A stretch of 64,000 nt of DNA, taken from NCBI RefSeq assembly GCF_000763945.1, contig NZ_JQFJ01000002.1, positions 2,035,501 to 2,099,500 of the forward strand, written 5' to 3'. A program made the position numbers and the translations under genes. Each line of letters starts with the position of its first letter. Positions within the stretch are counted from its first letter, which is position 1. The notes below the pieces were generated by a model that had not been told where the DNA came from, did no database searches, and saw only the letters and a program-made list of their open reading frames with translations. This stretch comes from Sphingopyxis sp. MWB1 (GTDB taxonomy: Bacteria > Pseudomonadota > Alphaproteobacteria > Sphingomonadales > Sphingomonadaceae). Of this stretch, positions 32,297 through 58,200 are shown in pieces.

Positions 32297-32325
32297 CTTA
32301 ACGGCGGAAGATTCGTGGGATTAAG
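32297..32325 (-). promoter_or_regulatory. Sigma-28 (FliA) promoter of flgMN
   Basis: The minus strand reads CTTAATC, 13 nt, then GCCGTTAAG. The same elements with identical spacing occur before fliD and fliC, and a weaker copy before motA. It lies between the flgA terminator and flgM. Confidence 0.82.
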
Positions 32326-32354
32326 TCGGCTTTCGGGAAAAAGCGCAAAAGAAA

Positions 32355-32388
32355 GCCCGGCACCGTCGAAAAAGTGACGGTGCCGGGC
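32355..32388 (-). terminator. Rho-independent terminator after flgA
   Basis: GCCCGGCACCGTC (32355-32367) and GACGGTGCCGGGC (32376-32388) form a perfect 13-bp stem with an 8-nt loop, followed on the minus strand by TTTCTTTT. It lies 26 nt past the flgA stop and insulates flgA from flgMN. Confidence 0.9.
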
Positions 32389-32413
32389 CTGATTGATGGC
32401 CTGAAGGCGAGGT

Positions 32414-32929
32414 TCAATCCGACAGGCGAGCTCGGCCCGGGCCGGTGACGCGGGCGGATAGCATATGCTTGCGGTCGTCGCCTCGCAGGGCGATGGTCTC
32501 GCCGAGCCGCCCGTCTTCGGCAGCAATGGCGGAATAGCTTACCGAAAAACTGGCGGTGTCGATCGTCACCCGCACATTGTCTCCGCGCCGGATTACCGGG
32601 GCGGCCGCGGCCGGGCGAGCAAAGCTTGCCGCATGTGGCGAAGCGCCGGGCGCGTTGACCATCGGGACGCGCAGGCGCCAGCCCAGCGAGGAGCAGCGCA
32701 CCGCGAGCGCATTGGCGTCAATGGCAGTGATCGAAGCCTGTTCGGGGCAGCGCGCCAATTTGATGCGCCGGTCGATGGGCTGCGCGCTGCGTCCCATGGC
32801 ATTGGCCACCATCTGGGTCAGCGTGTCGATCGTTTGCCAATCTTCATAAGGCTGCTCGGCGTGGCTCGCGGGGGCGAGCGGAAGGCTGACCAAGCTGGCA
32901 GCCGCAAGGGCAAAGCTGGTGCGCAACAT
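32414..32929 (-). CDS. flgA: P-ring assembly chaperone FlgA
   Basis: This 171-residue periplasmic protein assists FlgI assembly into the P ring. A signal peptide (MLRTSFALAAASLVSLPLAPASHA) is followed by the FlgA/SAF-type fold. RRIKLARCPEQ is present with paired cysteines, and the C-terminal part has VIRRGDNVRVTIDTASFSVSYSAIAAEDGRLGETIALR. AAGGAGA before the ATG at 32929 supports the start. It is a single-gene unit with a sigma-54 promoter upstream and a terminator downstream, divergent from flgB. Confidence 0.92.
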   Translation of the reverse strand: MLRTSFALAAASLVSLPLAPASHAEQPYEDWQTIDTLTQMVANAMGRSAQPIDRRIKLARCPEQASITAIDANALAVRCSSLGWRLRVPMVNAPGASPHAASFARPAAAAPVIRRGDNVRVTIDTASFSVSYSAIAAEDGRLGETIALRGDDRKHMLSARVTGPGRARLSD

Positions 32930-32990
32930 AATCCGTCTCCTTCGAATCAACGGTGCTTCCACCGGACGAAAATCATCAGTCCATGGTTAT

Positions 32991-33005
32991 GCAGGAACTG
33001 TGCCA
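32991..33005 (-). promoter_or_regulatory. Sigma-54 promoter of flgA
   Basis: The minus strand reads TGGCACAGTTCCTGC, matching the consensus except for C in place of the first T of TTGC. It lies 62 nt before the flgA ATG. Confidence 0.75.
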
Positions 33006-33135
33006 TACCAGTGTGCAGCCTGCTTCCAGGGCGGCGCGGGTCGCCCCGTCATTTTTTTGACGAGGGCCAGCCCCGTCCGCTTTCGGCGCCGCAGATCGAT
33101 CAGAAAAGGGCGTAAAATCAAGCGCAAATCTGATT

Positions 33136-33150
33136 TGGCACGTCCGTTGC
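33136..33150 (+). promoter_or_regulatory. Sigma-54 promoter of the flgBCDEFGHIJKL operon
   Basis: TGGCACGTCCGTTGC is a full match to the sigma-54 consensus. It lies 66 nt before the flgB start, placing transcription start near 33162. It is divergent from the flgA promoter, about 130 nt away. Confidence 0.88.
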
Positions 33151-33216
33151 ATCATTCTCTTCGTTTCCGCACGTCCGCGCTGGCCAGCCCAGCCGGATCG
33201 CGAAAGAAGGATCAGG

Positions 33217-33558
33217 ATGATGGCATCGGAAAAGCTATTCGGCATGCATGCAACCGCGCTGCAATTGCGCAGCCAGCGCATGATGATGCTCGCCTCGAAC
33301 ATCGCCAATGCTGCGACGCCCAATTACAAGGCGCGCGACCTTGATTTCGCCAAGGCGCTGGATCTTGCCAAGCAGGGCGGCCCTACGGACGGCGCGATCA
33401 AATATCGCGTACCGGTTCAGCCTTCGCTCGACGGTAACACCGTCGAAATGGCGACCGAGCAGACCGCCTTTGCCGAGAATGCGCTCGCCTATCGGTCGAG
33501 CCTCGCCTTCCTTTCGGGGCGCATCAACACGCTGACGCGCGCGATCAAGGGAGAATAG
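33217..33558 (+). CDS. flgB: Flagellar proximal rod protein FlgB
   Basis: This 113-residue rod subunit has the conserved axial-protein N-terminus [28 protein letters not shown] and C-terminal helix. Family members are about 110-140 residues. The start is ATG-ATG, so 33220 is equally possible; GAAGGATCAGG lies just upstream. It is the first gene of the hook-basal-body operon. Confidence 0.93.
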
Positions 33559-33560
33559 GA

Positions 33561-33965
33561 ATGAACGGCAGTTTCTCCGTATTCGATATCAGCGGGCGCG
33601 CCATGTCGGCGCAGCTCGTCCGCCTGAATACAACGGCATCGAATCTGGCCAATGCCGGGACGGTTGCGGGCAGCGAGGGGGAGGCGTTTCGTGCGCTGAA
33701 ACCCGTCTTTCGCACCGTCACCGACGCCCATGGCCGCGCCACGGTGCAGGTCGACCAGGTCGCCTCTTCCAAAATGGCGCCGTCGAAACGGCACGATCCC
33801 ACCAACCCGCTCGCCGATGCGGAGGGCAATGTGTGGGAGGCCGCGGTCGATAGCGCGGCGGAACTGGTCGAGATGGTCGAAACCGCCCGCCAATATCAGA
33901 ATAATGTCCAGGTCCTCGAAACCGCGAAAGGCCTGATCAACGAAACGCTGAGGATGGGACAATAA
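33561..33965 (+). CDS. flgC: Flagellar rod protein FlgC
   Basis: This 134-residue rod subunit has an N-terminal axial motif (LNTTASNLANAGT) and a C-terminal EAAVDSAAELVEMVETARQYQNNVQVLETAKGLINETLRMGQ, typical of FlgC. Two bases separate it from flgB and two from flgD. Confidence 0.94.
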   Translation: MNGSFSVFDISGRAMSAQLVRLNTTASNLANAGTVAGSEGEAFRALKPVFRTVTDAHGRATVQVDQVASSKMAPSKRHDPTNPLADAEGNVWEAAVDSAAELVEMVETARQYQNNVQVLETAKGLINETLRMGQ

Positions 33966-33967
33966 TC

Positions 33968-34279
33968 ATGACGACAACCAGCGCCATTAACGGATCGGAC
34001 CTGCCGACCGTCCCGAAAAACAGCGGGATGCAATTGGGGCAGGGCGATTTTCTGCGTCTTATGACCGCCCAGCTGTCGCAGCAGGATCCGTTCAACCCCG
34101 TCGATAATACCGAGATGGTCGCGCAGATGGCGCAATTTTCGAGCCTGGCGGGCGTCAGCGAAACCAATGTGATGCTGAAGAATATCGCCGAGCTTTTGAA
34201 AACCCAGACCGATCTTCTGAAAGACATAAAGGCAGCGGGCAATCCGCCTGCCACCCAAACCCCTGCTGAGGAAGGATAA
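33968..34279 (+). CDS. flgD: Hook-cap protein FlgD, minimal form
   Basis: At 103 residues this is less than half the usual FlgD length (about 220-230). The conserved N-terminal scaffold is complete: GQGDFLRLMTAQLSQQDPFNPVDNTEMVAQMAQFSSLAGV. After it only a helical stretch and a Pro/Thr-rich tail remain; the C-terminal Ig-like/Tudor-like domains are missing. The following gene starts 6 nt after the stop, so there is no remnant of the lost part. It should still cap the growing hook. Confidence 0.9.
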   Translation: MTTTSAINGSDLPTVPKNSGMQLGQGDFLRLMTAQLSQQDPFNPVDNTEMVAQMAQFSSLAGVSETNVMLKNIAELLKTQTDLLKDIKAAGNPPATQTPAEEG

Positions 34280-34284
34280 CAGCC

Positions 34285-35112
34285 ATGTCATTTTATACGT
34301 CGCTTTCGGGCCTGAAGGGCGCCCAGACCGATATGTCGGTCATCTCGAACAATATCGCCAACGCCAGCTCGACCGGCTTCAAGCGTAGCCGCGCCCAATT
34401 TGGCGACCTCTTCGCTTCATCGCCGACCCAGTCGACCCGCATGATCGCGGGGCAGGGCCAGCGCCTCAATGGCGTGATGCAGCAATTCACCCAGGGCACG
34501 ATCGAGGCGAGCGAAAAGACGCTCGACCTCGCCATTGCCGGTGAAGGCATGTTCATGGTGAAGGGCGAGCCGCCCCGCGAGGCCGTGACCTATACGCGCA
34601 ACGGTTCGTTCAGCGTCACCAGCGACCGTCAGGTCGTCGATACCACGGGCGCGAAGCTTCAGCTTCTTCCCGTCGACGCCAATGGCGAAGTGACCGACCG
34701 CACGCTTGCGGGTGCCTATGACTTCATTCTGCCTTCGGGCGCGCCGAGCGATCCGACCTCTGGCCTGGTCAATGTCTCGGTCGGCCTCGACGGGCTCGTG
34801 ACCGCGACCTTTGCCAATGGCGAGGATCAGATGCTGGGCAAGGTGGCGATGGCGACCTTCCCTGCGATGGAAGGGCTGCGCCCGGTGGGCGACGCGCATT
34901 GGCAGTCGACGGGCGACAGCGGCCCGCCGACCATCGATGCTGCGACCAATGGCCCGATGGGATCGATCCGCTCGGGCGCGCTTGAACGCTCGAACGTCGA
35001 TATCACCGAAGAGCTGGTGCTGCTGATGGCCGCCCAGCGCAACTTCCAGGCCAATGCCAAGGCGATCGAAGGCTCGTCGAGCCTGACGCAGACCATCATC
35101 GGGCTGCGTTGA
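34285..35112 (+). CDS. flgE: Hook protein FlgE, short form
   Basis: This 275-residue hook protein has the FlgE N-terminus (SFYTSLSGLKGAQTDMSVISNNIANASSTGFKRSRAQFGDLF) and the C-terminal ALERSNVDITEELVLLMAAQRNFQANAKAIEGSSSLTQTIIGLR. Common FlgE proteins are about 400 residues or more; here the outer D2-like region appears absent or very small. FlgG of this operon is almost as long (262). Position after flgD and the ASSTGFKRSR motif support FlgE rather than a second FlgG. Confidence 0.88.
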   Translation: MSFYTSLSGLKGAQTDMSVISNNIANASSTGFKRSRAQFGDLFASSPTQSTRMIAGQGQRLNGVMQQFTQGTIEASEKTLDLAIAGEGMFMVKGEPPREAVTYTRNGSFSVTSDRQVVDTTGAKLQLLPVDANGEVTDRTLAGAYDFILPSGAPSDPTSGLVNVSVGLDGLVTATFANGEDQMLGKVAMATFPAMEGLRPVGDAHWQSTGDSGPPTIDAATNGPMGSIRSGALERSNVDITEELVLLMAAQRNFQANAKAIEGSSSLTQTIIGLR

Positions 35113-35147
35113 CGCATCGCTGATCGCCGCCTGTCGGGAGATCCTTC

Positions 35148-35891
35148 ATGGACCGTCTTATCTATACCAGCCTCACCGGAATGCGCGGCAGCATGTCGCG
35201 TCAGACGGCGATTGCCAACAATCTGGCCAATGCCCAGACGCCGGGCTTTCGCGCCGATATGGCGGAGGCGCAGTCGCTCTGGCTCAAGGGCGGCGGCATG
35301 GGAACGCGGGCCATGGCCTCCGAAGAGGTGATCGGCGCCGACATGCGTCTCGGCACGATCACCGAAACGGGGCGCGACCTCGACGTCGCGATGCAGGGCG
35401 ATGCGCTGCTCGTGGTCCAGGCGCCCGATGGCGACGAAGCCTATACGCGGCGCGGCGATCTGCAATTATCGGCGAGCGGGCTGGTGACGACGGGCGATGG
35501 GCATCCGGTTCAGGGGATGCAGGGTCCGCTGACCTTGCCTCCCGCGGATGCCGTCAAGATCGACGCCGATGGCCGCGTCTGGATTGTGCCCGCTGGCGGT
35601 GATCCGGAAAACCCGCAGGAGGTCGACCGCATCCGCCTTGCCACTCCCGCCGGGTCGGACATCGTCAAGGGCCTCGATAATCTGTTTCGCGTCAAGGACG
35701 GCGGCATTTTGCCCGACGACCCTGAGGCGCGCCTGATTACCCGTTCGATCGAAGGATCGAATGTTTCCGCCACCACCGCGCTCGTCGAGATGATCGAGGC
35801 GAGCAAGAGCTGGGACACGCAACTTCGCCTCGTCAGCAGTGCGCGCGACATGGACAATGCCAGCGCCAATCTGATGCAGCTTCCCCGATAG
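35148..35891 (+). CDS. flgF: Flagellar proximal rod protein FlgF
   Basis: This 247-residue axial protein has N-terminus MDRLIYTSLTGMRGSMSRQTAIANNLANAQTPGFRADMAEAQSL and C-terminus SIEGSNVSATTALVEMIEASKSWDTQLRLV, both diagnostic of FlgF. It sits between flgE and flgG as expected, and GGGAGATCC precedes the ATG. Confidence 0.94.
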   Translation: MDRLIYTSLTGMRGSMSRQTAIANNLANAQTPGFRADMAEAQSLWLKGGGMGTRAMASEEVIGADMRLGTITETGRDLDVAMQGDALLVVQAPDGDEAYTRRGDLQLSASGLVTTGDGHPVQGMQGPLTLPPADAVKIDADGRVWIVPAGGDPENPQEVDRIRLATPAGSDIVKGLDNLFRVKDGGILPDDPEARLITRSIEGSNVSATTALVEMIEASKSWDTQLRLVSSARDMDNASANLMQLPR

Positions 35892-35902
35892 GAGTTTAGG
35901 AT

Positions 35903-36691
35903 ATGAGCTTCGGTGCTCTTCACGTCGCCCGCACGGGGCTTGATGCCCAGGGCTTTCGCATGCAGGTGATCGCCAACAATCTGGCGAACGTCAACACCAC
36001 GGGATTCAAGCGCGACCGCGCCAATTTCGAAACCTTGAGCTACCAGATGGTGACCCAGCCGGGCGCGCCCTCGGCAGCGGAAAACCGCTATGCCACCGGG
36101 CTTAACCTCGGCACCGGGGTCGCGCTGGCGGGGACTGCGCGCATCGACACGCAGGGGACATTTGCCGCCACCGGCAACAACCTCGACATGGCGATTGACG
36201 GGCCGGGCTATTTTCAGGTGCAAATGCCCGACGGACGCATCGGCTATACGCGCGCGGGCAATTTCGGGCGCGCCGCCGACGGCACCATCGTCACCTCCGA
36301 CGGCAAGCCGCTCGAACCGCAAATCCAGATTCCCGAAGACGCGACCAATGTGTCGATTGGCGCTGACGGCACGGTCTCGGCGAGCGTTCCGGGGCAGGCC
36401 GAGGTCGTCGAACTTGGCCGCATCGAAATCGCCCGCTTTGCCAATCCGGCGGGGCTGCAGGCGATTGGCGACAATCTGCTCGTCGAAACCGCCGCCTCCG
36501 GCCAGCCCATCGTGGGCGCAGCCGGCGAGGAAGGGCGCGGCAGCCTGCGCGGCGGCATGCTCGAAGGGTCGAACGTCAATGTCGTCGAAGAGCTTGTCGA
36601 CATGATCGAGACGCAGCGCGCCTATGAGGTCAATTCAAAGATGATCCAGGCCACTGACGAGATGATGAAAAATGCAACGCAAACGCTCTGA
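35903..36691 (+). CDS. flgG: Flagellar distal rod protein FlgG
   Basis: This 262-residue rod protein has N-terminus ALHVARTGLDAQGFRMQVIANNLANVNTTGFKRDRANFETLSYQ and C-terminus GMLEGSNVNVVEELVDMIETQRAYEVNSKMIQATDEMMKNATQTL, nearly canonical for FlgG. Its 3' end overlaps flgH by 20 nt. Confidence 0.96.
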   Translation: MSFGALHVARTGLDAQGFRMQVIANNLANVNTTGFKRDRANFETLSYQMVTQPGAPSAAENRYATGLNLGTGVALAGTARIDTQGTFAATGNNLDMAIDGPGYFQVQMPDGRIGYTRAGNFGRAADGTIVTSDGKPLEPQIQIPEDATNVSIGADGTVSASVPGQAEVVELGRIEIARFANPAGLQAIGDNLLVETAASGQPIVGAAGEEGRGSLRGGMLEGSNVNVVEELVDMIETQRAYEVNSKMIQATDEMMKNATQTL

Positions 36692-37340
36692 TCTGATCGG
36701 CCTCGGCTTGATCGCGCTCGCGCTGGTGCCTTCCGGTGCCGACGCGCGCGACAAGCCCGAGGCCGATGCGTTCGCGGCCTCCATGCCGCTTCCGCCGCCT
36801 CCGCCCCCGGCCAATGGCGCAATTTTTCAGGGCGCCTACACCCCCCTCACCTCGGGCGGGCGCGCCGGACAGATTGGCGATATTCTGACCATCCAGCTCG
36901 TCGAGCGGACGATGGCGTCGAAAAGCAACGCTGCGGGCACCCAGCGGGGCGGCAGCGTCGGGCTTTCGCCGCCGAGCACCGGACCCTTGTCGCTGTTCAA
37001 TCCCAGCGACATTGGCATGGGCGGCGACCAGCAGTTTCAGGGCAAAGGGCAGGCATCGCAGTCGAACCTGCTCGCCGGGGAAATCAGCGTCACCGTTGCC
37101 GGCGTCTATCCCAATGGCACCTTGTTCGTGCGCGGCGAAAAGCTGATCACCCTCAATCGCGGTGACGAGCGCGTCCAGATTTCAGGCATTGTCCGCCCGA
37201 TGGATATCGGCCCCGACAACCGGGTGCTTTCGACCCGCGTGGCCGATGCCCAGATCCGTTATGTCGGCAAGGGGGAAATTGCGCGCGCGAGCCGCCAGGG
37301 CTGGCTGCAGCGCTTCTTCTCCATGATCAGCCCCTTTTAA
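36672..37340 (+). CDS. flgH: L-ring protein FlgH without lipobox cysteine
   Basis: This 222-residue outer-membrane L-ring subunit is recognised by SLFNPSDIGMGGDQQFQGKGQASQSNLLAGEISVTVAGVYPNGTLFVRGEKLITLNRGDERVQISGIVRPMDIGPDNRVLSTRVADAQIRYVGKGEI. Standard FlgH is a lipoprotein with a cysteine after the signal peptide. Here the leader MQRKRSDLIGLGLIALALVPSGADA ends in an ordinary signal-peptidase-I-like ADA site, and the whole protein has no cysteine. A proline run follows. The start lies inside the end of flgG. Confidence 0.92.
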   Translation: MQRKRSDLIGLGLIALALVPSGADARDKPEADAFAASMPLPPPPPPANGAIFQGAYTPLTSGGRAGQIGDILTIQLVERTMASKSNAAGTQRGGSVGLSPPSTGPLSLFNPSDIGMGGDQQFQGKGQASQSNLLAGEISVTVAGVYPNGTLFVRGEKLITLNRGDERVQISGIVRPMDIGPDNRVLSTRVADAQIRYVGKGEIARASRQGWLQRFFSMISPF

Positions 37341-37356
37341 ACCGAAGGATATTCAC

Positions 37357-40081: not shown

Positions 40082-40094
40082 AAGGACGCCGACG

Positions 40095-40925: not shown

Positions 40926-40929
40926 CGCC

Positions 40930-40957
40930 CTCAATAATCCGGCGCTGCTGCCGTTAC
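40930..40957 (+). promoter_or_regulatory. Sigma-28 (FliA) promoter of motAB
   Basis: CTCAATA, 13 nt, then GCCGTTAC. The -10 part matches the fliC, fliD and flgM copies, the -35 part matches in 5 of 7 bases, and the spacing is identical. It lies 60 nt before the motA ATG. Confidence 0.68.
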
Positions 40958-41017
40958 AGATAAAGACGTCCCTGTTTGGACGGGCTTCGCAAGGGGCCCG
41001 AATGGAGTTGCCCGCGC

Positions 41018-41881
41018 ATGTTTCCCGCTATCGGCATTGTCGTTTTGCTGTTGCTGGTCTTTGGTGGCTTTGCGCTGTCGGGAGGAAATCTCGCGCCCGT
41101 CATGCATGCCTTGCCGCACGAGATGCTGATCATCGGCGGAGCGGCGGCGGGATCGCTGATCATCGGCAACTCGGGCCGCGACCTGAAAGCGCTGGGACGC
41201 GGGCTCGGCAAAGTGTTCAAGGGACCGCAATATCAAAAGCAGGATTATCTCGACGTTATCCTGCTCGTCTCCACCCTCATGAAGATGATGCGGACCGAAG
41301 GACCGGTCGCGGTCGAACCGCACATCGAAGATCCGCAAAACTCCACGCTGTTTCAGCAATATCCCAAGCTTTTGAAGGATGACACGCTCATCCACCTCAT
41401 CTGCGACACGCTGCGCCTTGTCGTCGTCTCCTCGGGCACGCTTGAGCCCCATGCGGTCGAGGAGGTGATGGATAATGCGGTGAAAAGCCATCATCATCAT
41501 GCGATCAAACCCGCCGAAGGCTTGCAGAGCCTCGCCGATGCTTTGCCCGCGCTGGGCATTGTCGCTGCGGTTCTGGGCGTGGTGAAAACCATGGGCTCGA
41601 TCGACAAGCCCCCCGAAGTGCTGGGCGGCATGATCGGTTCGGCGCTGGTCGGCACTTTCCTTGGCGTCCTGCTCGCTTATGGTCTTGTCGGCCCCTTCGC
41701 GACCCGCGCCAAGACGGTGATCGAGGCGGACGCGGCCATTTATCATACGGTGAAACAGCTCATCATCGCCTCGCTTCACGGTCACCCGCAGCCCTTGGTG
41801 ATCGAGGCGGCGCGGTCTGGCGTCGAACATGCCAACCAGCCGAGCTTTGCCGAAGTGTTTGACGGAATGCGGGGCCGCTGA
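41018..41881 (+). CDS. motA: Flagellar motor stator protein MotA
   Basis: This 287-residue stator subunit has four membrane helices. The conserved cytoplasmic loop and helices 3-4 read GLQSLADALPALGIVAAVLGVVKTMGSIDKPPEVLGGMIGSALVGTFLGVLLAYGLVGPFA, containing the conserved prolines. The histidine-rich SHHHHAIKP precedes the conserved loop. The ATG at 41018 begins the first hydrophobic helix; an upstream in-frame start at 40976 would add 14 polar residues. It overlaps motB by one base (TGATG). Confidence 0.95.
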   Translation: MFPAIGIVVLLLLVFGGFALSGGNLAPVMHALPHEMLIIGGAAAGSLIIGNSGRDLKALGRGLGKVFKGPQYQKQDYLDVILLVSTLMKMMRTEGPVAVEPHIEDPQNSTLFQQYPKLLKDDTLIHLICDTLRLVVVSSGTLEPHAVEEVMDNAVKSHHHHAIKPAEGLQSLADALPALGIVAAVLGVVKTMGSIDKPPEVLGGMIGSALVGTFLGVLLAYGLVGPFATRAKTVIEADAAIYHTVKQLIIASLHGHPQPLVIEAARSGVEHANQPSFAEVFDGMRGR

Positions 41882-42747
41882 TGGCGGCGCGTCCCAACAC
41901 CCCGCCGCGCCCGATCATCGTCAAAAAGGTGATCGAGGGCGGGCATGGCGGCCACCATGGCGGCGCGTGGAAGGTTGCCTATGCCGACTTCGTGACGGCG
42001 ATGATGGCCTTCTTCTTGCTGATGTGGCTGCTTGGCGCCACGACCGAAAAGCAGAGGAAGGCGCTCGCCGATTATTTCGCGCCGACCATCGTGCAGACCA
42101 AACAGGATTCGGCGGGTTCGAAGGGGCTGTTCGGCGGCGAATCTCTTGTGTCGGTCGACAAATATCCGCACCGCCAGGGGCAAACGGGCACACGCACCAT
42201 GACCATCCCGCGCGACGCCACGGGCGGCCCGCGCGAAGCCTCGGGGCGCGAGCGGGAGAATGAACGGCGCCGCTTCCAGCTTCTCGCCCAGTCGCTCAAC
42301 GAAAAGCTTTTGTCCAAATCCGAACTCAAGCGGCTCGCACGCAACCTGCGCTTCACCGAAACGATGGAAGGGCTAAGGATCGATGTCGTCGATGACGCCG
42401 ACCTTTCGATGTTCCAGCTTGGTACCAGCGAGCTGACGCCGGCCGGCGCGCGCCTGTTCAGCGAGATCGCCACGGTGGTGGCGGCGGTGCCGAACCAGCT
42501 CATGATCCGCGGCCATACCGATTCGGCGCCCTGGTCGGCGGGGTCGGGCACGAATAATTGGCGACTGTCGGTCGACCGCGCCGAAGTGACGCGCAATTAT
42601 CTGGAGTATCGCGGCATCGGGACCGAGCGTTTTCAGCGAATCGAAGGGGTCGCGGATCGCGAACCCCATATCCCGTCCGACCGCCTTGATCCGCGCAACC
42701 GCCGTATTTCCATCACTTTGGGCTGGCGATTGGCGGGGGATAATTAG
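41881..42747 (+). CDS. motB: Flagellar motor stator protein MotB
   Basis: This 288-residue stator subunit has one membrane helix near the N-terminus, with the proton-accepting aspartate in YADFVTAMMAFFLLMWLLG. The plug/linker and an OmpA-like peptidoglycan-binding domain (LMIRGHTDSAPWSAGSGTNNWRLSVDRAEVTRNYL, PSDRLDPRNRRISITLGW) follow. The presence of this aspartate, as in proton-driven stators, suggests proton rather than sodium coupling; that is inference. Confidence 0.95.
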   Translation: MAARPNTPPRPIIVKKVIEGGHGGHHGGAWKVAYADFVTAMMAFFLLMWLLGATTEKQRKALADYFAPTIVQTKQDSAGSKGLFGGESLVSVDKYPHRQGQTGTRTMTIPRDATGGPREASGRERENERRRFQLLAQSLNEKLLSKSELKRLARNLRFTETMEGLRIDVVDDADLSMFQLGTSELTPAGARLFSEIATVVAAVPNQLMIRGHTDSAPWSAGSGTNNWRLSVDRAEVTRNYLEYRGIGTERFQRIEGVADREPHIPSDRLDPRNRRISITLGWRLAGDN

Positions 42748-42771
42748 TGCCAGTTTGGCTGCATCAACTCT

Positions 42772-42789: not shown

Positions 42790-42929
42790 CCCAATCTGCT
42801 GCCAAAATGGCGATAAAATCATGATTTGAAGGGGTTGAGAGCCCTTGGATAATCTTTTGTTTACCATTTTCGTCAATTTCTCTCTCCCGAGGGAAGCGCC
42901 CGTCTGCGGCGCGGTGGAGATTGAAGACG

Positions 42930-44054
42930 ATGACTGCGGGGAAGAATAATCAGGATCTGGCGCTCGAAGCGCTCATCATCGGCAGCAGCCCGGCGACAAG
43001 CCATCTGCGCGAGATGATTCGCCGGGTGGCGCGCTCCAATGCGTCGGTCATGCTCTGCGGCCCGTCGGGGTCGGGCAAGGAGCTGGTCGCGCGGGCCATT
43101 CACGATATGGGCGCGCGGGCTGAAAAGCCTTTTGCTGCCATCAACTGCGGTGCCATTCCCGCCGAACTGATCGAATCCGAATTATTCGGGCACGAAAAAG
43201 GCTCCTTCACCGGCGCCACCTCGCGTCGCCTCGGCCATTTCGAAGCGAGCGAAGGCGGCACCATCTTTCTCGACGAAATTGGCGACATGCGCTTCGACAT
43301 GCAGGTCAAGCTGCTCCGCGTGCTCGAAGAGCGGACGATCGTTCGCGTCGGCAGCAGCGAGGTTCGCAATGTCGACGTGCGCGTCATTTCGGCCACCCAT
43401 CAGGATCTGGGCGCCGCCATCGCCGATGGCCGCTTTCGCGAGGATCTTTTCTTCCGCCTCGGCGTCGTCGTGCTGCAGGTGCCGAGCCTCGCCAGCCGGG
43501 TCGAGGATATTCCGGCGCTGATCCGTCATTTCCAGCGCAAGATGCCGGCGTCGGCCAAATGCCAGTTTGACCAGGGCGCGCTGTCGGTGCTGATGCAGCA
43601 TCGCTGGCCCGGCAATGTCCGCGAACTGCGCAATTTCGTCGAACGGGCGAGCGTTCTTTACGGCGGCGAAACGCTGGGCGCGGAGGAAGTGGCTTTGCTG
43701 CTCAATCCCACGGCGCAATTCACGCTGCCGCTTGAAGCTGCTTCGGCGAGGACGGCCAATGAGGCGGCCTATGCCCTCGATACCGAGGCTGATGCGGATG
43801 CGGAGGCTGATGTCGATATGGCCGCAGAGGCTGCAGAGGCTCCCGTTCCGGTTGCCAAGGCGCCCACGCCTGCACCCGGTCGCCCCATCGACCTGAAGCG
43901 CGAGATAGAGAATATCGAGCTGGAGCAGATCCACGTCGCGCTCGAACTCGCCGATGGCATTATTTCAGAGGCTGCGCGTCTGTTGACCTTGAAGCGCACG
44001 ACCCTGATCGAGAAAATGCGCAAATATGGTGTGCAACAGGCGCAGGCCGCCTGA
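42930..44054 (+). CDS. Flagellar sigma-54-dependent activator (FleQ/FlbD-like)
   Basis: This 374-residue enhancer-binding protein begins almost directly with the AAA+ domain: Walker A GPSGSGKE, the sigma-54-contact loop as GSFTGA (usual GAFTGA), Walker B GGTIFLDEIGDM, and arginine finger region REDLFFRLGVVVLQVP. It ends in a Fis-type HTH (EQIHVALELADGIISEAARLLTLKRTTLIEKMRKYG). No receiver or FleQ N-terminal domain is present. A linker of about 60 residues is rich in Ala, Asp, Glu and Pro, from a degenerate DNA repeat. The ATG at 42930 has GGAG upstream; a TTG lies three codons earlier. It probably drives the four sigma-54 promoters of the cluster. Confidence 0.9.
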   Translation: MTAGKNNQDLALEALIIGSSPATSHLREMIRRVARSNASVMLCGPSGSGKELVARAIHDMGARAEKPFAAINCGAIPAELIESELFGHEKGSFTGATSRRLGHFEASEGGTIFLDEIGDMRFDMQVKLLRVLEERTIVRVGSSEVRNVDVRVISATHQDLGAAIADGRFREDLFFRLGVVVLQVPSLASRVEDIPALIRHFQRKMPASAKCQFDQGALSVLMQHRWPGNVRELRNFVERASVLYGGETLGAEEVALLLNPTAQFTLPLEAASARTANEAAYALDTEADADAEADVDMAAEAAEAPVPVAKAPTPAPGRPIDLKREIENIELEQIHVALELADGIISEAARLLTLKRTTLIEKMRKYGVQQAQAA

Positions 44055-44102
44055 TCATTTCCTACTTCCTTTTGGGCGGATAATGGGCGGCCAGCTCTTG
44101 CC

Positions 44103-44519: not shown

Positions 44520-44530
44520 GGTCGGCAGCC

Positions 44531-45898
44531 CTATTTATACTGATTATTCCACATCTCGATCTGCTGCTCGAGATAGGATTGGGTGGCCTTGAAGGCGGCC
44601 AGCTTGGCATCGAGCGAGCCATATTGCTTCTCGAGCCGCGCGCGATAGGCTTCCTCCCGCGTCTCAACCTTGTCGAGCTGGTCCATCAGCGTTTCGCTAC
44701 GATCGGTCAGCGATTTGTTGACGCGTTCCAGCACGCCATTCTCGCCGGTGGCGGCATCGCGCAGCCGGTCGAGCACCACGGCAATGCCGGGTTCATTGCC
44801 TTCATTATGCGTGGCGTCGCGGCGGGGGTTGAACATCGCTTCGACCGCGCCGGCGTCTTCGGCCAATATCTTGTCGAGCTTGGTGCGGTCGAGGGTCAGA
44901 AGCCCTTCCTTGTTCGTTGAAACGCCGATGTCAGCCAGCTTGTTGATGCTGCCATGACCGGTCAGCACCTGGCTGATCAGTCCGCCCAGCTCATTTTCCA
45001 GCTGACGCAGCGAGGAGGTGGAGCCGGGCATGGAGGCCGCGGCTTTGACGCTCTTTTTCAATTGATTATACACATCGACAAAATCGCCGACCGTCTGCCG
45101 CAACATGTCGAGCGGGCGGCTCGCGCCCAGGTCCACGCCCTGACCGGGCGCGGCCTTTTTCAGTGTCAGCGACATGCCGGGGACAACATCGTCAATGATG
45201 TTGGAGGCGCGGCTGAAAGCAACGCCATCGACGGTAAATTCGGCGTTGGCGGCGCTTTGGCCCATCGTCATGCCGCCATTGGTGGCAAAGGCGGCGAGTC
45301 CCGGATCGGCACCGCCATCAGCGGTCAGCGTGAATGCATTGTCCGCGCCATTGGCGCCTTTCAGGATCAGGCGGTGCCCACCCTGATCGGCAATGATTGA
45401 CGCCGTGACGCCAGCGTCACTGGCATTGATCGCTGCCGCCAGCCCGTCAAGGCTGTCGTTGGTGCCGTCGATGGTGATCGCATGATCGGTGCCGCCGATG
45501 CTCAGCGTCATATTGCCCTGCCCAATAGGGGCGGTGCGATCGGCGACGACGCCCGAATAGCTGGTTTGCGCGCGGGCAAGCTGGGAAACAACCAGCGTCG
45601 CCGAAAAACTGTCGGCGGCAACCCCGGCGCGCGAGGTCGCCGACAAAATGCTTTCGTCGGACACGGTCGGAATGCTGCGCAGCGTCCCGTCAGAGATCAT
45701 CTGCGCGAGCGAATCGGCAAAGCCCATCAGATCGGACCGGGCCTGCGCAACCGCGCTGATCCGCGCCTGATTCTGCTGTTGCAAGGCAGAGATGCGCGCA
45801 ACCTTTGGCTGGCGCGACGCTTGGGCCAGGTCGGCGACCAGCTGCTTGGTATCAATGCCCGACCCAAAGCCGAGCGCATTGGCGATTGAACTGACCAT
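44531..45898 (-). CDS. fliD: Filament cap protein FliD
   Basis: This 455-residue cap protein has N-terminus ANALGFGSGIDTKQLVADLAQASRQPKVARISALQQQNQARISAVAQARSDLMGFADSL and a C-terminal FliD domain. The C-terminus includes LADIGVSTNKEGLLTLDRTKLDKIL and a helix ending KATQSYLEQQIEMWNNQYK. It has its own sigma-28-type promoter 20 nt before the ATG and is followed by fliS. It belongs with filament genes although it physically follows flhB. Confidence 0.95.
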   Translation of the reverse strand: MVSSIANALGFGSGIDTKQLVADLAQASRQPKVARISALQQQNQARISAVAQARSDLMGFADSLAQMISDGTLRSIPTVSDESILSATSRAGVAADSFSATLVVSQLARAQTSYSGVVADRTAPIGQGNMTLSIGGTDHAITIDGTNDSLDGLAAAINASDAGVTASIIADQGGHRLILKGANGADNAFTLTADGGADPGLAAFATNGGMTMGQSAANAEFTVDGVAFSRASNIIDDVVPGMSLTLKKAAPGQGVDLGASRPLDMLRQTVGDFVDVYNQLKKSVKAAASMPGSTSSLRQLENELGGLISQVLTGHGSINKLADIGVSTNKEGLLTLDRTKLDKILAEDAGAVEAMFNPRRDATHNEGNEPGIAVVLDRLRDAATGENGVLERVNKSLTDRSETLMDQLDKVETREEAYRARLEKQYGSLDAKLAAFKATQSYLEQQIEMWNNQYK

Positions 45899-45917: not shown

Positions 45918-45946
45918 CTTAACGGCGGCGCGCGCGAAAGATTAAG
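45918..45946 (-). promoter_or_regulatory. Sigma-28 (FliA) promoter of fliDS
   Basis: The minus strand reads CTTAATC, 13 nt, then GCCGTTAAG, identical in both boxes and spacing to the flgM copy. It lies in the 93-nt gap between flhB and fliD, separating fliDS from the long fli operon. Confidence 0.82.
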
Positions 45947-47131: not shown

Positions 47132-47136
47132 GCCGC

Positions 47137-47916: not shown

Positions 47917-47935
47917 CGGGCGGTTCGCTCGCGCC

Positions 47936-48205: not shown

Positions 48206-48208
48206 CGC

Positions 48209-48979: not shown

Positions 48980-48986
48980 CGCCCAA

Positions 48987-51124: not shown

Positions 51125-51138
51125 GGCTCGGCTCCTGT

Positions 51139-52596: not shown

Positions 52597-53036
52597 AGGA
52601 CGCCCCCTTCGATCAGGCGCAGCCGCATGCCCTGCCCCTGAAAGGGGCGGTTGGCGTCGCGGCGGCGCTCGGCTTCGGCTTCCGCCGCCTGACGGCTGCG
52701 TTCATACAGGCGATTGGCCGATTCCTCCTTGACCATCGCGGCCTGTGCCAGCGCGCTCATCTGGTCGCGGCGGGCGCTGGCATCATCCAGCGGCTTGGCC
52801 AGGCTTTCCTTGGCGGTGTCGAGCCGGATCCCCAATTCGCCGATCGAGTTGAGCGCGCGGCCGGTCGCCGCCCCCTTGGCCATGGCGAGTTCGGTGCGCA
52901 GGCTCTCAAGGCGCTTGGCCAGTTCGACCAGATTGGCTAGCTCGCCCGAGGCGCGGGCCAGATTGGCCTCCGCCCGTTGATGTTCGACGGTGCGCACGCG
53001 AATGATACGTTGGCGGCGTGCGGTACGGGCGTTCAT
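52593..53036 (-). CDS. fliJ: Flagellar export protein FliJ
   Basis: This 147-residue, highly charged coiled-coil protein (VEHQRAEANLARASGELANLVELAKRLESLRTELAMAKGAA..., KEESANRLYERSRQAAEAEAERRRDANR) lies between fliI and fliK. FliJ fits the stalk of the export ATPase. Assignment is from size, coiled-coil character and position; overlaps of 4 nt occur on both sides. Confidence 0.85.
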   Translation of the reverse strand: MNARTARRQRIIRVRTVEHQRAEANLARASGELANLVELAKRLESLRTELAMAKGAATGRALNSIGELGIRLDTAKESLAKPLDDASARRDQMSALAQAAMVKEESANRLYERSRQAAEAEAERRRDANRPFQGQGMRLRLIEGGVL

Positions 53037-54364
53037 GCAGAATATCCTTCGATCAAGCTTTGGCGGGATGTTTCGAAATCGACCCGGACGCCGGGCGCTT
53101 GCGTGACAAAGGCAAGCTGGTCGGCGCGGCGGGCAATGGCTTCGTCGAGTATGGGGTCGCTGCCGGCGGTGTAGGCGCCCATCAGCATCAGGTCGCGATT
53201 CTCTTCATAAGCGGACCAGAGCTGGCGAAAGCGGGCGGCGGCGGCGGCGTGCGGCGCATCGACCGAATCGGCCATGGTGCGCGACAGCGAGCGCGCGACA
53301 TCAATGGCGGGATAGACGCCCTGTTCGGCCAATTGCCGCGACAGGATGATATGGCCGTCGACGATGGCGCGCGCGCTGTCGACCACCGGATCCTCAATAT
53401 CGCCGCCATCGGCGAGCACGGTGTAGAGCGCAGTGACCGATCCGCCGGTTTCGCGGTCGATCCCGGCCCGCTCGACCAGCGAGGGGATGAGGGCAAAGAC
53501 CGACGGCGGATAGCCTTTCATCGTCGGCGGCTCGCCCAAAGTCAGGCCGATCTCGCGCTGGGCATGGGCAACGCGGGTCAGGCTGTCGATCAACAGCAGC
53601 ACCTTCTTGCCTTCGTCGCGAAAGGCTTCGGCGATGGCGGTCGCGCGCATCGCGGCGCGCAGGCGCAGCAGCGGGGGATGATCGGCGGGAACGGCGACGA
53701 CGACCGATTTCTTGCGTACCGCAGGCGGCAGCTTGGTTTCGACAAAATCGCTGACCTCGCGGCTGCGTTCGCCGATCAGGCCGACGACAATGACGTCGCA
53801 TTCGGTTCCGGCAATCATCTGTCCCATCAGAACCGATTTGCCGACGCCCGACCCCGCAATGATCGCAACGCGCTGGCCTTCGCCAACGGTCAGCAGGCCG
53901 TTGATGGCGCGCACGCCCATGTTGAGCGGTTTGGTGACGCGACCCCGGCGCAGCGGATTGACCTTGCGCCCGGCCAGCGGCCATTGGAATTGCGATTTGA
54001 CCGCGGGCCGGCCATCGAGCGGCTGGCCCTGCGCGTCGATGATCCGTCCCAGCAGCGCCTTGCCGCACGGCACCATGCTCGATGCGCCATGCGGCTCAAC
54101 GGGTGCGCCGGTGACGAGCGGCTGGTTGGTGTCAAAAGGCAGGACCAGGCTGCGGTGTCCGCGAAAGCCGACGACCTCGCCATTCACATAATCGCCCGTT
54201 GCCGATTTGATGCGGACATTGCTGCCCAGCGGCTGCGGAAAGCCGGATACCTCGAGCATAATGCCTTCATGCGCGACCAGCGTGCCGACGCGGCGCGGCG
54301 ATGCGTGCGTCAGATCGACGGAATCGAGCAATTGGCGCGCGGTCATGGCGAGGCGGCGGGTCAT
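53033..54364 (-). CDS. fliI: Flagellar export ATPase FliI
   Basis: This 443-residue F1-like ATPase has Walker A GSGVGKSVLM, Walker B VLLLIDSLTRVAHAQREIGL, GEPPTMKGYPPSVFALIPSLVERAG, and the C-terminal SRQSLIEGY. It energises export with FliH and FliJ. Its ATG overlaps the fliH stop by 4 nt. Confidence 0.97.
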   Translation of the reverse strand: MTRRLAMTARQLLDSVDLTHASPRRVGTLVAHEGIMLEVSGFPQPLGSNVRIKSATGDYVNGEVVGFRGHRSLVLPFDTNQPLVTGAPVEPHGASSMVPCGKALLGRIIDAQGQPLDGRPAVKSQFQWPLAGRKVNPLRRGRVTKPLNMGVRAINGLLTVGEGQRVAIIAGSGVGKSVLMGQMIAGTECDVIVVGLIGERSREVSDFVETKLPPAVRKKSVVVAVPADHPPLLRLRAAMRATAIAEAFRDEGKKVLLLIDSLTRVAHAQREIGLTLGEPPTMKGYPPSVFALIPSLVERAGIDRETGGSVTALYTVLADGGDIEDPVVDSARAIVDGHIILSRQLAEQGVYPAIDVARSLSRTMADSVDAPHAAAAARFRQLWSAYEENRDLMLMGAYTAGSDPILDEAIARRADQLAFVTQAPGVRVDFETSRQSLIEGYSA

Positions 54365-54984
54365 GCCACCTCTCCCGGATGGCCCAGCGCGGCGCGCAGT
54401 TCATCCAGATAAACGGCGCGGCCATGTTCGATCCAGCCGGCCGATGTTTCGATGCGGATGGTGCCGCGCGGCATGGCCGGATCGGCCTCGACCGGCAGCT
54501 TGACCGGACAGTCGACCAGCAGCGCGGCGTCGGCGGGATTGACCCACAGGGTGCGCGCCTTGTCGGCTTCGGCGACCATGGCGGCGGCGGTTTCGGCCTG
54601 TTGCTGCAACCAGTCGGCGTTGATGGGTGCATCTTCGACAATCTGCCGCACCAGCCGCTCGACCGTTTCGGCGATCAGCTGCGCCAGCTCTTCGCTCGGC
54701 TCATCCTGCAAGGCTTCGGCGGCGGCGACCAGCGCAAGCAACTGATGCCGCTCGGCATTATGCGCCGCTTCCGCCAGTCGCTGCCCTTCGGCCAGGCCGC
54801 GTGCAAAGGGATCGTCGGCCTGTTCCGGGGTCGCGGCCTCGGGCGCGGCGCGGTCCGCGGGCATGGGGGCCGATGCGGGTGCATGCGGCGCGGCAAAGGA
54901 CAGCGGACGAAAGCCGCTGCTTTGCGCCATGGCAGCGGCCAGCGCGCCGGGGGCAAAGGCGGTGGGGGCGCTGCGATCAGACAT
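54361..54984 (-). CDS. fliH: Flagellar export regulator FliH
   Basis: This 207-residue protein has an Ala/Pro-rich N-terminus, a helical middle (FARGLAEGQRLAEAAHNAERHQLLALVAAAEALQDEPSEELAQLIAETVERLVRQIV) and a C-terminal ATPase-binding domain (RTLWVNPADAALL...PRGTIRIETSAGWIEHGRAVYLDELRAAL). The ATG at 54984 overlaps fliG by 8 nt; an upstream start at 55005 is possible. It is the FliI stator in the export apparatus. Confidence 0.9.
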   Translation of the reverse strand: MSDRSAPTAFAPGALAAAMAQSSGFRPLSFAAPHAPASAPMPADRAAPEAATPEQADDPFARGLAEGQRLAEAAHNAERHQLLALVAAAEALQDEPSEELAQLIAETVERLVRQIVEDAPINADWLQQQAETAAAMVAEADKARTLWVNPADAALLVDCPVKLPVEADPAMPRGTIRIETSAGWIEHGRAVYLDELRAALGHPGEVA

Positions 54985-56026
54985 AATCGTCGCCTGCGCC
55001 CGCAATCATGATCTCGCCCGAAGCCGCCATCTGGCGGACGATCTGCATGATCGCCTTTTGTGCTTCGTCGACATCGGTGCGCTTCACCATCGTCATTTCG
55101 GCCATTTCGTCGCGGATCGTTTCCGATGCGCGTTTCGACATGGTCGACAGGCACAGATCGACCATTTCCTCGTCGGTGCCCTTGAGCGCGATCGCCAGTT
55201 CGGCGGCATCGACACTGCGCAGCACGGTGCCGAGGCTCTTCTTGTCGAGGTCGCGCAGATTTTCGAAGATGAACATTTCCTCTTCGATGATCTGGGCCAG
55301 CGCCTTGTCATGCTTCTTGAGCGCGCGGATCGTGCGTTCCGACAATTGCTTGGGCATTTGCTTCATGATCTTGGCGACGTCGCTGGGGCCGCCGATCGCT
55401 TTCTTGGCGACGCGCTGGCCATCGGCATTGGCGGCGGACAGCACCGCCTCCAGATCCTCGATCGCAGCCGCGGGGACCGAGCTCAGCTGTGCCGCGCGCA
55501 GCACCAGATCGGCCTGCAAGGTTTCGTCGAGCGTTTCGATGGCACGCGCGGCGACATCGGGCACCAGCACCGACAGGATCAGCGCGCCGACCTGCGGATG
55601 CTCGCTGGCGAGCAGCCCGCTGATCGCCTCGACATCCATCCAGCGCAGCATTTCGAGCGAAGCGGCGCTGCGCTGCGGCGCGACGGCGGCCAATATATTG
55701 TCGGCGCGGACATTGCCCACCGCCTGATTGATCACGGTGCGAATGCGCGTGTCGGCTCCGATGGCGAGCGCGCTCACACCGCGGCTTTGCACGACAAACT
55801 GGCCCAGCGCCTGTTCGATCTGCGCTTCGCTCGCATTGGCGGTATCGAACATCGACTTGGCAAGCTGGCGCACCTCTTCGGGGTCGAGATGCTTGAGGAT
55901 TGTCGCCGCCTCGCTTTCATCGAGCAGCATCAGCAATATGGCGGCGGCCGACGAACCATCGACCAGGGGCTTGCTGGTGGGTGCGGCTTCTTCGAGGGCG
56001 ATTTCGGCAACCTCAGGCACGGGCAC
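54977..56026 (-). CDS. fliG: Flagellar switch/torque protein FliG
   Basis: This 349-residue rotor protein has N-terminal GSSAAAILLMLLDESEAATILKHLDPEEVRQLAKSM, middle EHPQVGALILSVL, and C-terminal torque-domain helices FIFENLRDLDKKSLGTVLRSVDAAELAIALKGTDEEMVDLCLSTMSKRASETIRDEMAEM, with the charged residues that face MotA. It overlaps fliF by 14 nt and fliH by 8. Confidence 0.96.
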   Translation of the reverse strand: MPVPEVAEIALEEAAPTSKPLVDGSSAAAILLMLLDESEAATILKHLDPEEVRQLAKSMFDTANASEAQIEQALGQFVVQSRGVSALAIGADTRIRTVINQAVGNVRADNILAAVAPQRSAASLEMLRWMDVEAISGLLASEHPQVGALILSVLVPDVAARAIETLDETLQADLVLRAAQLSSVPAAAIEDLEAVLSAANADGQRVAKKAIGGPSDVAKIMKQMPKQLSERTIRALKKHDKALAQIIEEEMFIFENLRDLDKKSLGTVLRSVDAAELAIALKGTDEEMVDLCLSTMSKRASETIRDEMAEMTMVKRTDVDEAQKAIMQIVRQMAASGEIMIAGAGDDYV

Positions 56027-57674
56027 CCTCCTGCATCAGCTGGCGCACGACCAGCGCGGCGCGTTCGGAATCCTGCCGGACAAAGGCCCGCACCAGATTG
56101 GCGCGATCTTCATAGCTGGGGGCGGCCTCAATCATTTCGAGCGTGATTTCGCCGCCATTGTCGCTGTTGCCGCTCGGCAGCGCCGGGCGCGTTTCCGTGG
56201 CAGCGAGCAGCGATTCCTCGAGCGCGCTTTCGCGTTCGGCGCGCGCGCGGGCGCGTTCCTTCGCGGCCTTGATCAGCGGGCGTCCGATGAAGAGAAAGGC
56301 GAGCAGCGCGGCGAGAATGGCGCCGCCTTGCTTGACGAGCGGCAGGAACCAGCTTTCCTCGTAAAAGGCGGGCGGCGTTTCCTCCACCTTCACAAAGGGG
56401 CGCTGATTGATCGCGACAGTGTCGCCGCGCGCTTCGTCAAAGCCGACCGCGCCTTTCACCAGCGCGTCGATCTTGGCGAGATCGGCTTGGGTCAGCGCTT
56501 TCTGGCCCTGATTGAGCGCCACCGCGACCGACACGCGGCGCAGGCGGCCCTGCGGCTGATGCGTCACCGAAATTTCGCGGCCCACTTCATAAGCGCGCGA
56601 GGCATTTTCATTGCTCTGCGTTTCCGTTCCGCCCCCGGCGGCGACCGGCGCGGGCGCCTGATCGACGACGGTGGTGGCCTGCGGCGGCTGGTTGGAAAGC
56701 GCGCCGGGAATGCCGACTGCGGGCGGCGTGCCCTGACCCGACACCGATCGCGTGATCTGCTCGCGGGTCAGCGCGCGGTCATTTTCGGGGAAGCTTTCGC
56801 GGGTCGCCTGGCTTTCGGACATGTCGACATCGGCGTGGACCTCGACCGAAAAATTGCCCGCGCCCAGCATGGGGCGCAGCAGCGTGTCGAGCGCCGCGCG
56901 AAAGCGGTCCTCGATCTGGGTCTGGAGCTGAAAGGCCTTCATGTCGCTGCTCGTCGCCGAATCGGACAGCAGCGCACCGCGCTGGTCGATCACCGACACC
57001 TGCTCGGCATTCATGCCCGGAACCGACGAAGCGACGAGGAAACGGATCGCCTGCACCTGTCCATCGGACAGCGTGCGACCATTTTGCAGCGTCAGCATCA
57101 CCGATGCGGTGGCCGGCTTGTCCTCGCGCACGAACAGGCTGGGTTCGGCGGCGGCAATATGGACGCGCGCGTTTTTCACCGCGTCGATCGCCTCGATGGT
57201 GCGGGCAAGATCGGCCTCGCGGGCTCCTCTCAACGTTTCGCCTTCGATCGCGCGGCTCGACCCCATGGGCAGCGCGGCGATCATGCTGTCGCCCGTGGGC
57301 TGGGCGCGGGGCAGGCCCTGTCCGGCCAGCGTCATGCGCGCCTGATGCAACTTGTCGGCATCGACCGTCAGCGCGCCGGTGGCGGGGTCGATTTCATGGG
57401 CAATGCCCGATGATTGCAGCGCTTCGGCCACAGCGGCCTTGTCGCTATCGTCCAGGCCGGAAAATAAGGGGGCCTGCGGTGCCGCTTGCGTCAGGAACCA
57501 GGCAAGCGCGGCGATGCCGATCGCGCTGGTGGTGGCGATGGCGGGCAGGGCCCGCTGCACGGCGGGCTGGCGGGTAAACTGACGGAGCGGCGCGAACCGC
57601 TCACCGATGCCGGGCGCGGGAAGCTGCGCCGGCGAAGATGTGTCGAGTGGGGCAAGAGCTTGAGCGTTGGACAT
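56013..57674 (-). CDS. fliF: MS-ring protein FliF
   Basis: This 553-residue inner-membrane ring protein has two membrane helices (about 44-65 and about 445-465). Between them lie YscJ-like ring-building domains (ALFSGLDDSDKAAVAEALQSSGIAHEIDPATGALTVDADKLHQARMTLAGQGLP, RTIEAIDAVKNARVHIAAAEPSLFVREDKPATASVMLTLQNG). The C-terminal FliG-binding tail ends in VRQDSERAALVVRQLMQEG. It follows fliE by 3 nt. Confidence 0.96.
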   Translation of the reverse strand: MSNAQALAPLDTSSPAQLPAPGIGERFAPLRQFTRQPAVQRALPAIATTSAIGIAALAWFLTQAAPQAPLFSGLDDSDKAAVAEALQSSGIAHEIDPATGALTVDADKLHQARMTLAGQGLPRAQPTGDSMIAALPMGSSRAIEGETLRGAREADLARTIEAIDAVKNARVHIAAAEPSLFVREDKPATASVMLTLQNGRTLSDGQVQAIRFLVASSVPGMNAEQVSVIDQRGALLSDSATSSDMKAFQLQTQIEDRFRAALDTLLRPMLGAGNFSVEVHADVDMSESQATRESFPENDRALTREQITRSVSGQGTPPAVGIPGALSNQPPQATTVVDQAPAPVAAGGGTETQSNENASRAYEVGREISVTHQPQGRLRRVSVAVALNQGQKALTQADLAKIDALVKGAVGFDEARGDTVAINQRPFVKVEETPPAFYEESWFLPLVKQGGAILAALLAFLFIGRPLIKAAKERARARAERESALEESLLAATETRPALPSGNSDNGGEITLEMIEAAPSYEDRANLVRAFVRQDSERAALVVRQLMQEGARA

Positions 57675-57677
57675 GGA

Positions 57678-58019
57678 TTACACCGGCATGTTCATGATGT
57701 CGCGATAGGCGGAGAGCAGTTTGTTTCGAACCTGCAGCGTCGTTTCAAAGCCGAGCGAGGCTTTCTGCCGCTCGATCATCACGCTGACGATGTCGTGCGT
57801 GTCGCCGCGCTCATAGGCTTCGGTCATAGCGCCTGCCTTGGCCTGCTGATTATTGACTTGCTGCAGGGCGTTCGAAATCGCGGCACCGAAATCGGGCGTG
57901 CCCTCGGCACCTGCCGCACTGTCGAGGCCGCCGCGTCCGGCCGCCCGCTGAAGCGCTTCATTCTGATTGAGGATCGAACTGCGCATTTGCAGCAATCGGC
58001 TCTGGTCAATCGTGCTCAT
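57678..58019 (-). CDS. fliE: Hook-basal-body protein FliE
   Basis: This 113-residue rod/MS-ring adaptor has TPDFGAAISNALQQVNNQQAKAGAMTEAYERGDTHDIVSVMIERQKASLGFETTLQVRNKLLSAYRDIMNMPV, typical of FliE. It is the first gene of the fliE-to-flhB operon, with a sigma-54 promoter upstream, and is divergent from fliC. Confidence 0.95.
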   Translation of the reverse strand: MSTIDQSRLLQMRSSILNQNEALQRAAGRGGLDSAAGAEGTPDFGAAISNALQQVNNQQAKAGAMTEAYERGDTHDIVSVMIERQKASLGFETTLQVRNKLLSAYRDIMNMPV

Positions 58020-58070
58020 AAGCTTTCATCCATCCTGTCGGCGGCGATACACCGCACACCCCGATATAAT

Positions 58071-58085
58071 GCAATCGACGTGCCA
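58071..58085 (-). promoter_or_regulatory. Sigma-54 promoter of the fliE-to-flhB operon
   Basis: The minus strand reads TGGCACGTCGATTGC, a full consensus match. It lies 51 nt before the fliE ATG, with transcription start expected near 58059. Confidence 0.88.
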
Positions 58086-58172
58086 AGCTGGAATAAGTCA
58101 ATGAATTCCGTCATTTATGGATGGGTGCTCCTGCCTCGATAGTCAGGTCGGCATTTTTTTGACGCCGGTTCG

Positions 58173-58200
58173 CTTAATCCCCGTCTCGCCCCGCCGTTAT
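58173..58200 (+). promoter_or_regulatory. Sigma-28 (FliA) promoter of fliC
   Basis: CTTAATC, 13 nt, then GCCGTTAT, with the same spacing as at flgM, fliD and motA. It lies 66 nt before the fliC ATG. Confidence 0.82.

Follow-up and report, generated by a model that had tools for sequence, protein, structure and literature searches.

How are the last genes of the flagellum switched on in Sphingopyxis? The question is raised by a stretch of 64,000 nucleotides (nt) from Sphingopyxis sp. MWB1 (NCBI RefSeq assembly GCF_000763945.1, contig NZ_JQFJ01000002.1, positions 2,035,501 to 2,099,500), hereafter called the window, which carries a flagellar gene cluster. A sequence-only reading of the window had placed a promoter for the flagellar sigma factor FliA (sigma-28), written CTTAATC-N13-GCCGTTA, before the late genes flgM, fliD and fliC and, as CTCAATA-N13-GCCGTTA, before motA, and before none of the early operons, and had proposed that this motif defines a late regulon. 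Our analysis supports that interpretation: the window encodes both FliA and its anti-sigma factor FlgM, the motif is conserved before the late genes at a single spacing, and the four sites are very probably the sigma-28 promoters of fliC, fliD, flgM and motAB in Sphingopyxis. Sites of the same layout also stand before genes for cyclic di-GMP (c-di-GMP) signalling, so that the switch may help the cell to pass from swimming to sticking.

Four sites before the late flagellar genes

Three exact copies of CTTAATC-N13-GCCGTTA were found in the window, upstream of flgM (32299-32325, minus strand), fliD (45920-45946, minus strand) and fliC (58173-58199, plus strand, with the fliC ATG at 58267), while each of 100 dinucleotide shuffles of the window contained none. 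The fourth site, CTCAATA-N13-GCCGTTA (40930-40956, plus strand), differs from these by two mismatches and lies directly after the flgL stop codon, before motAB. All four sites are present as proposed, with ends one or two bases away from those first given. The case from sequence alone is mixed. In the window, five matches were found at up to three mismatches against 2.4 expected; the whole genome holds four exact copies, the three in the window and one outside. Two genome-wide controls weigh against the sites: at up to two mismatches there are eight matches against 23 for the backwards pattern, and CTNAA-N15-GCCGTTA gives five matches in either direction. Because of the former control, sequence alone does not make the motA site significant; conservation does, with a homologous site at 27 of 27 relatives' loci. 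The deciding factor is position.

We compared flagellar-cluster stretches from 28 same-genus genomes, comprising 54 loci and 1.06 Mb. The box CT(T/C/A)AA-N15-(G/T)CCGTTA stands in 102 of the 105 readable upstreams of fliC, fliD, flgM and motA, and none of these 105 contains it at a spacing of N11-N14 or N16-N19. Allowing a wider -10 (CTHAA-N15-[GT][CT]CGT[TC]A), the site was recovered at flgM in 28/28 loci, at fliD in 25/25, at motA in 27/27 and at fliC in 24/25. The flgM sites of the relatives carry TCCGTTA in 20 loci and GCCGTTA in eight, the window's own flgM site being CTTAA-N15-GCCGTTA; GCCGTTA is found at 22 of the 25 fliC upstreams; and the motA -35 is CTCAA in 25 loci and CTAAA in two. 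The recognition rule is CT(T/C/A)AA-N15-(G/T)CCGTTA. As a -35 element CTTAATC was over-specified, and we rejected it as the motif since its positions 6 and 7 vary across the relatives. The spacing is indeed invariant, but 13 is no special feature of this organism, being the canonical 15 counted from TTAA.

The box is absent from all 382 upstreams (sum by hand) of 18 other cluster genes of the relatives, namely flgA, flgB, flgK, flgL, flhA, flhB, fliA, fliF, fliG, fliI, fliL, fliM, fliP, fliR, motB, the SLT gene, the FlgN-like gene and the sigma-54 activator gene (a fliK-like gene had no readable upstream and falls outside this number), and in the window the lenient pattern CT(T/C/A)AA-N15-nYCGTTA matches only the four late-gene sites, which bears out, for the upstreams read, the claim that no early operon is preceded by it. 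Over the 1.06 Mb the lenient pattern has 107 matches, of which 104 lie before the four genes and three before second fliC copies, and its backwards control has two, neither close to the four genes. The second fliC copies belong to three relatives (L254, L253 and L155), and a separate promoter of this type accompanies each.

The putative reader of these sites is encoded nearby. The fliA open reading frame (27866-28657, minus strand, as listed, with a provisional start codon) scores 213.1 bits against TIGR02479 (cut-off 189.6), its product is matched in sigma-70 regions 2, 3 and 4, and among solved chains those closest to it in sequence are FliA; flgM (31946-32260, minus strand) scores 46.5 bits against TIGR03824 (cut-off 40.75). 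We infer from these observations that the four sites depend on FliA, which would bind them. A search of 60 genomes, one of them our own, returned 39 matches to TTAATC-N13-GCCGTTA and none to the backwards pattern; FliA was detected at E<=1e-30 in 35 of the 36 same-genus genomes and in none of the 24 from other families, and the motif in 22 of the 36 and one of the 24, so that the two co-occur loosely by genome count. Against a strict link stands genome G018, which carries the motif without a FliA match, its assembly being 85% complete.

A more distant set comprised the surroundings of fliA in five other sphingomonad genomes and in two genomes of this genus whose FliA is divergent (G015 and G017). 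Here CT(T/A/C)AA-N15-(G/A)nCG(T/C)T was found in five of 11 late-gene upstreams, with no match at other spacings, and in 0 of 38 upstreams of early and middle genes. The six late upstreams without a match count against the proposal; the geometry of the box is probably older than the genus and its exact -10 is not.

Candidate targets beyond the flagellar cluster

Searching the 36 same-genus genomes with CTTAA-N15-GCCGTTA returned 97 matches. Since the backwards pattern returned 67, a further point against the motif as such, these counts alone are no proof of a regulon, and position and homology carry the proof. By hand tally the 97 comprise 76 matches at fliC, fliD or flgM, 13 at a gene for a DUF4402 protein, five at a diguanylate cyclase gene, two at a PilZ gene and one, in our own genome, at an Flp pilin gene. 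The genome-wide search that had been proposed for the late regulon yielded leads at c-di-GMP genes and at the pilin of our own genome; its suggested extension to chemotaxis found no support at the chemotaxis loci read, those of three methyl-accepting chemotaxis protein (MCP) genes. At these three loci of our own genome the lenient pattern has no match, and two weak matches appear when one substitution is allowed; none of the five own-genome matches of CTNAA-N15-GCCGTTA lies at an MCP gene, a strict pattern that a degenerate -10 of the cyclase type would escape.

The cyclase promoter is the lead most worth following. In our own genome the cyclase gene, which encodes a GGEEF domain and lies outside the window (C2:740589 onward; L219 1590 onward), is preceded by CTTAA-N15-CCCGTTA-N8-ATG. 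In the same-genus genome set, nTTAA-N15-nnCG(T/A)TA was found exactly 8 nt before the ATG in 30 of 31 cyclase copies, the 31st being one base longer, and the -10 of the 30 reads CTCGTTA in 12, CCCGTTA in 10, GCCGTTA in five and otherwise in three. A species-labelled set yielded 55 cyclase loci, most of them from Sphingopyxis; 53 were scored and 49 matched (44 Sphingopyxis and five labelled at higher rank), and of the two unscored loci L330 has, by eye, CTTAA-N15-GCCGTTC 8 nt before an ATG and L340 is partial. The region before the cyclase of genome G022 (L188) agrees with that of Sphingopyxis granuli NBRC 100800 (L293), which, like the predominance of Sphingopyxis among the 55 loci, points to this genus. 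The two sets share species and hence are not independent. Aligning the 49 matched upstreams with our own revealed T at -34, AA at -32/-31 and CGTTA at -13 to -9 in 50/50, the arrangement TTAA-N17-CGTTA-N8-ATG in 47/50 and N18 in the other three, with an information content that averages 0.18 bits between -100 and -40 and 0.42 bits across the spacer.

Transcription from sigma-28 promoters starts about 7 nt after the -10 octamer, and the cyclase box ends 8 nt before the ATG; the cyclase mRNA is therefore predicted to begin at or next to the ATG, that is, to be leaderless. The GGEEF motif is intact in every cyclase copy printed, and no RxxD, which before GGEEF we take to be an I-site, was seen there. 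FliA likely also reads this promoter of the same geometry, making the cyclase from a leaderless mRNA and so coupling completion of the flagellum to c-di-GMP.

Part of the genus carries a related site some 236 nt before the PilZ gene: of 30 loci, nine read nYCGTTA, 11 RCCGTAA and two, our own included, TTTAA, and eight have none. The PilZ gene is a weaker putative FliA target. At the gene for the DUF4402 secreted protein, for which our own genome has no match at E<=1e-8, CTHAA-N15-[GT]CCG[TA]TA was found 230-244 nt upstream in 16/30 loci, and a second, better conserved block, GTTAACCAtg...TTGCTGGCAAAGcCTGAAC, lies nearer the gene, about 100-150 nt before the start (L189-L218). Since its site is distant and the nearer block better conserved, the DUF4402 gene is only a possible target. 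An HD-GYP gene with a site was seen in a single genome (G026).

Outside the window, our own genome's fourth exact copy of the motif (C2:1432304; L001 1501-1527) lies upstream of an Flp/Fap pilin gene, 86 nt from its first possible ATG. Two such genes lie in tandem here (L001 1614-2150), the copy preceding the first. The lenient box was found within 350 nt upstream of the pilin in 0/29 relatives' loci, which led us to reject the pilin as a target conserved across the genus. In several relatives (L016, L020, L021, L024 and others) the homologous pilin is preceded by conserved GTTAACCTTCCTGTG and GGGAACTATA elements. The site in our own genome may be a recent gain or the product of chance.

Explanations other than FliA were weighed for each group of sites. 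A CtrA site has the form TTAA-N7-TTAA, and the TTAA words of the box could be taken for CtrA half-sites, the box itself being a CtrA-controlled promoter of another sigma factor. In favour of this reading, both elements contain TTAA where the -10 is followed by A, and alphaproteobacterial flagella, those of S. melonis among them, are reported to be under CtrA control (PMC6472365). The two TTAA words would, however, be 19 nt apart instead of 7, the second is absent from the window's fliC and motA boxes (GCCGTTAT and GCCGTTAC), the motA -35 is TCAA or TAAA, and the conserved CCG part would be left unexplained, all of which makes CtrA a highly improbable reader of these sites. A more serious rival, though in our judgement still rather unlikely, confines the FliA regulon to the flagellar sites and assigns those of the cyclase and PilZ genes to another sigma factor of similar preference. 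The observations that speak against FliA at the cyclase promoter belong here: most cyclase sites lack the G of GCCG, 25 of the 30 lacking GCCGTTA, and four cyclase orthologs, two from Novosphingobium and one each from Sphingobium and Sphingomonas, have no site, with no lenient match in the 400 nt around their starts, although these genomes encode a FliA-family sigma factor, over the cut-off in Sphingobium and Sphingomonas. Yet the cyclase sites share the -35 word, the spacing and the CGTTA core with the flagellar sites, and the five with GCCGTTA are canonical.

For the pilin we lean slightly towards a chance match that arose from an older conserved upstream element. (A/G)TTAACC stands in the 350-nt upstreams of 26/29 relatives' pilin loci, none of which has the box, and our own genome carries CTTAATC at that very place; moreover, the pilin is the sole match among the 97 that does not recur. 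Against chance, all 14 specified bases match in the right orientation at a distance of 86 nt from the first possible ATG, and coregulation of Flp pilus and flagellar genes is reported for S. granuli, where cpaA rises along with the flagellar genes (PMC6472365). Such coregulation does not itself establish control by FliA.

A proposed order of expression

The genes of the window allow the sites to be placed in a sequence of events. Beside fliA and flgM, the cluster contains fliD for the filament cap (44531-45898, minus strand; NCBIfam FliD models, below their cut-offs), motA (41018-41881, plus strand; open reading frame listed from 40976, with the ATG at 41018 picked by eye), which scores 355.6 bits against TIGR03818 (cut-off 303.8), motB (41881-42747, plus strand; 224 bits with the MotB model, under its cut-off of 277) and fliC for flagellin (58267-59085, plus strand; flagellin models, all those listed scoring below their cut-offs). 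A small gene between flgM and the SLT gene (31641-31949, minus strand), FlgN-like by position only, adjoins flgM in the relatives too, and its product matches neither an NCBIfam nor a Pfam model at E<=0.001. A gene at 42921-44054 (plus strand) encodes a sigma-54 activator with Sigma54_activat and HTH_8 matches and no receiver domain matched, a candidate activator of the early operons. Pattern scanning located three exact sigma-54-type sites, TGGCAC-N5-TTGC, before the SLT-flhA-fliA block (31594-31608, minus strand), before flgB (33136-33150, plus strand) and before the block leading to fliF, divergent from fliC (58071-58085, minus strand); at up to one mismatch the window has eight matches against 6.25 expected, which is chance level.

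The three exact sites together with the activator gene suggest an order in which sigma-54 would act early and sigma-28 late. Sigma-54 and the activator would switch on the early operons, fliA included; FlgM would restrain FliA up to the completion of the hook and its own export; and the freed FliA would then read the four late sites. An extension that we offer tentatively is that hook completion, by freeing FliA, would provide the leaderless cyclase with its intact GGEEF as well as filament, cap and stator, joined by a PilZ protein in some members of the genus and perhaps by the Flp pilin in this species, amounting to a built-in timer that readies the newly motile cell to quit swimming. Two ideas could be tested cleanly at the cyclase promoter: that c-di-GMP rises on flagellar completion, and that a signalling enzyme is expressed from a leaderless mRNA. 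With a conserved alphaproteobacterial FliA-FlgM pair and a precise promoter rule across genomes of one genus, the late regulon is directly testable.

Comparison with known flagellar systems

FliA of Escherichia coli also targets flagellin, cap and motor genes, and its class 3 promoters share with the sites described here a distance of 15 nt from TNAA to GCCG as well as flgM as a target. Compared with the consensus TAAA-N15-GCCGATAA the geometry is identical, the -35 is TTAA or TCAA and the -10 has T for A; a resemblance to the enteric sigma-28 consensus had been noted from the sequence alone. The E. coli consensus is given as TAAAGTTT-n11-GCCGATAA (PMC2859248), its -10 GCCGATAA corresponding to GCCGTTA(A) in Sphingopyxis with GCCGTTA for GCCGATA as the consistent change, and the E. 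coli sites mapped by chromatin immunoprecipitation include TTAA, TCAA and ACCG variants (PMC4183435). The regulons differ in extent: a FliA site precedes flgKL in E. coli (PMC4183435), whereas 0/27 flgK and 0/27 flgL upstreams of the Sphingopyxis relatives have one, and no site was seen at the three MCP genes here, unlike in the E. coli FliA regulon.

Within the sphingomonads, fliA and flgM are already annotated in S. granuli (PMC6472365), and PMC8921679 cites a putative sigma-28 factor of S. wittichii and the fliA of Sphingomonas sp. A1 and reports that the clusters of flagellar genes in Sphingomonas sp. WG contained none. Searching the open-access literature by titles and abstract starts, with most subscription papers outside the search, we found no definition of a FliA promoter in sphingomonads. 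In the alphaproteobacterium Azospirillum brasilense, RpoE6-Asf6 is likewise an alternative sigma/anti-sigma pair acting on flagellin, RpoE6 however being an extracytoplasmic function sigma factor (PMC12826043).

The Caulobacter-type flagellar hierarchy of alphaproteobacteria runs through CtrA, sigma-54 and FlbD and is not known to include FliA or FlgM. Sigma-54-type sites before early blocks and a sigma-54 activator gene in the cluster are common to that hierarchy and to the present one; here, by contrast, the late genes carry a sigma-28 site and the cluster encodes FliA as well as FlgM, which led us to reject a hierarchy of the Caulobacter type without FliA. The E. coli FliA regulon holds the c-di-GMP genes ycgR and yhjH, the latter encoding a c-di-GMP hydrolase, and their counterparts here are a candidate cyclase and a PilZ protein; if this holds, the flagellar sigma factor would raise c-di-GMP, unlike the E. 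coli FliA regulon with its yhjH. The FliA late regulon is a known kind of system, hardly described in Alphaproteobacteria.

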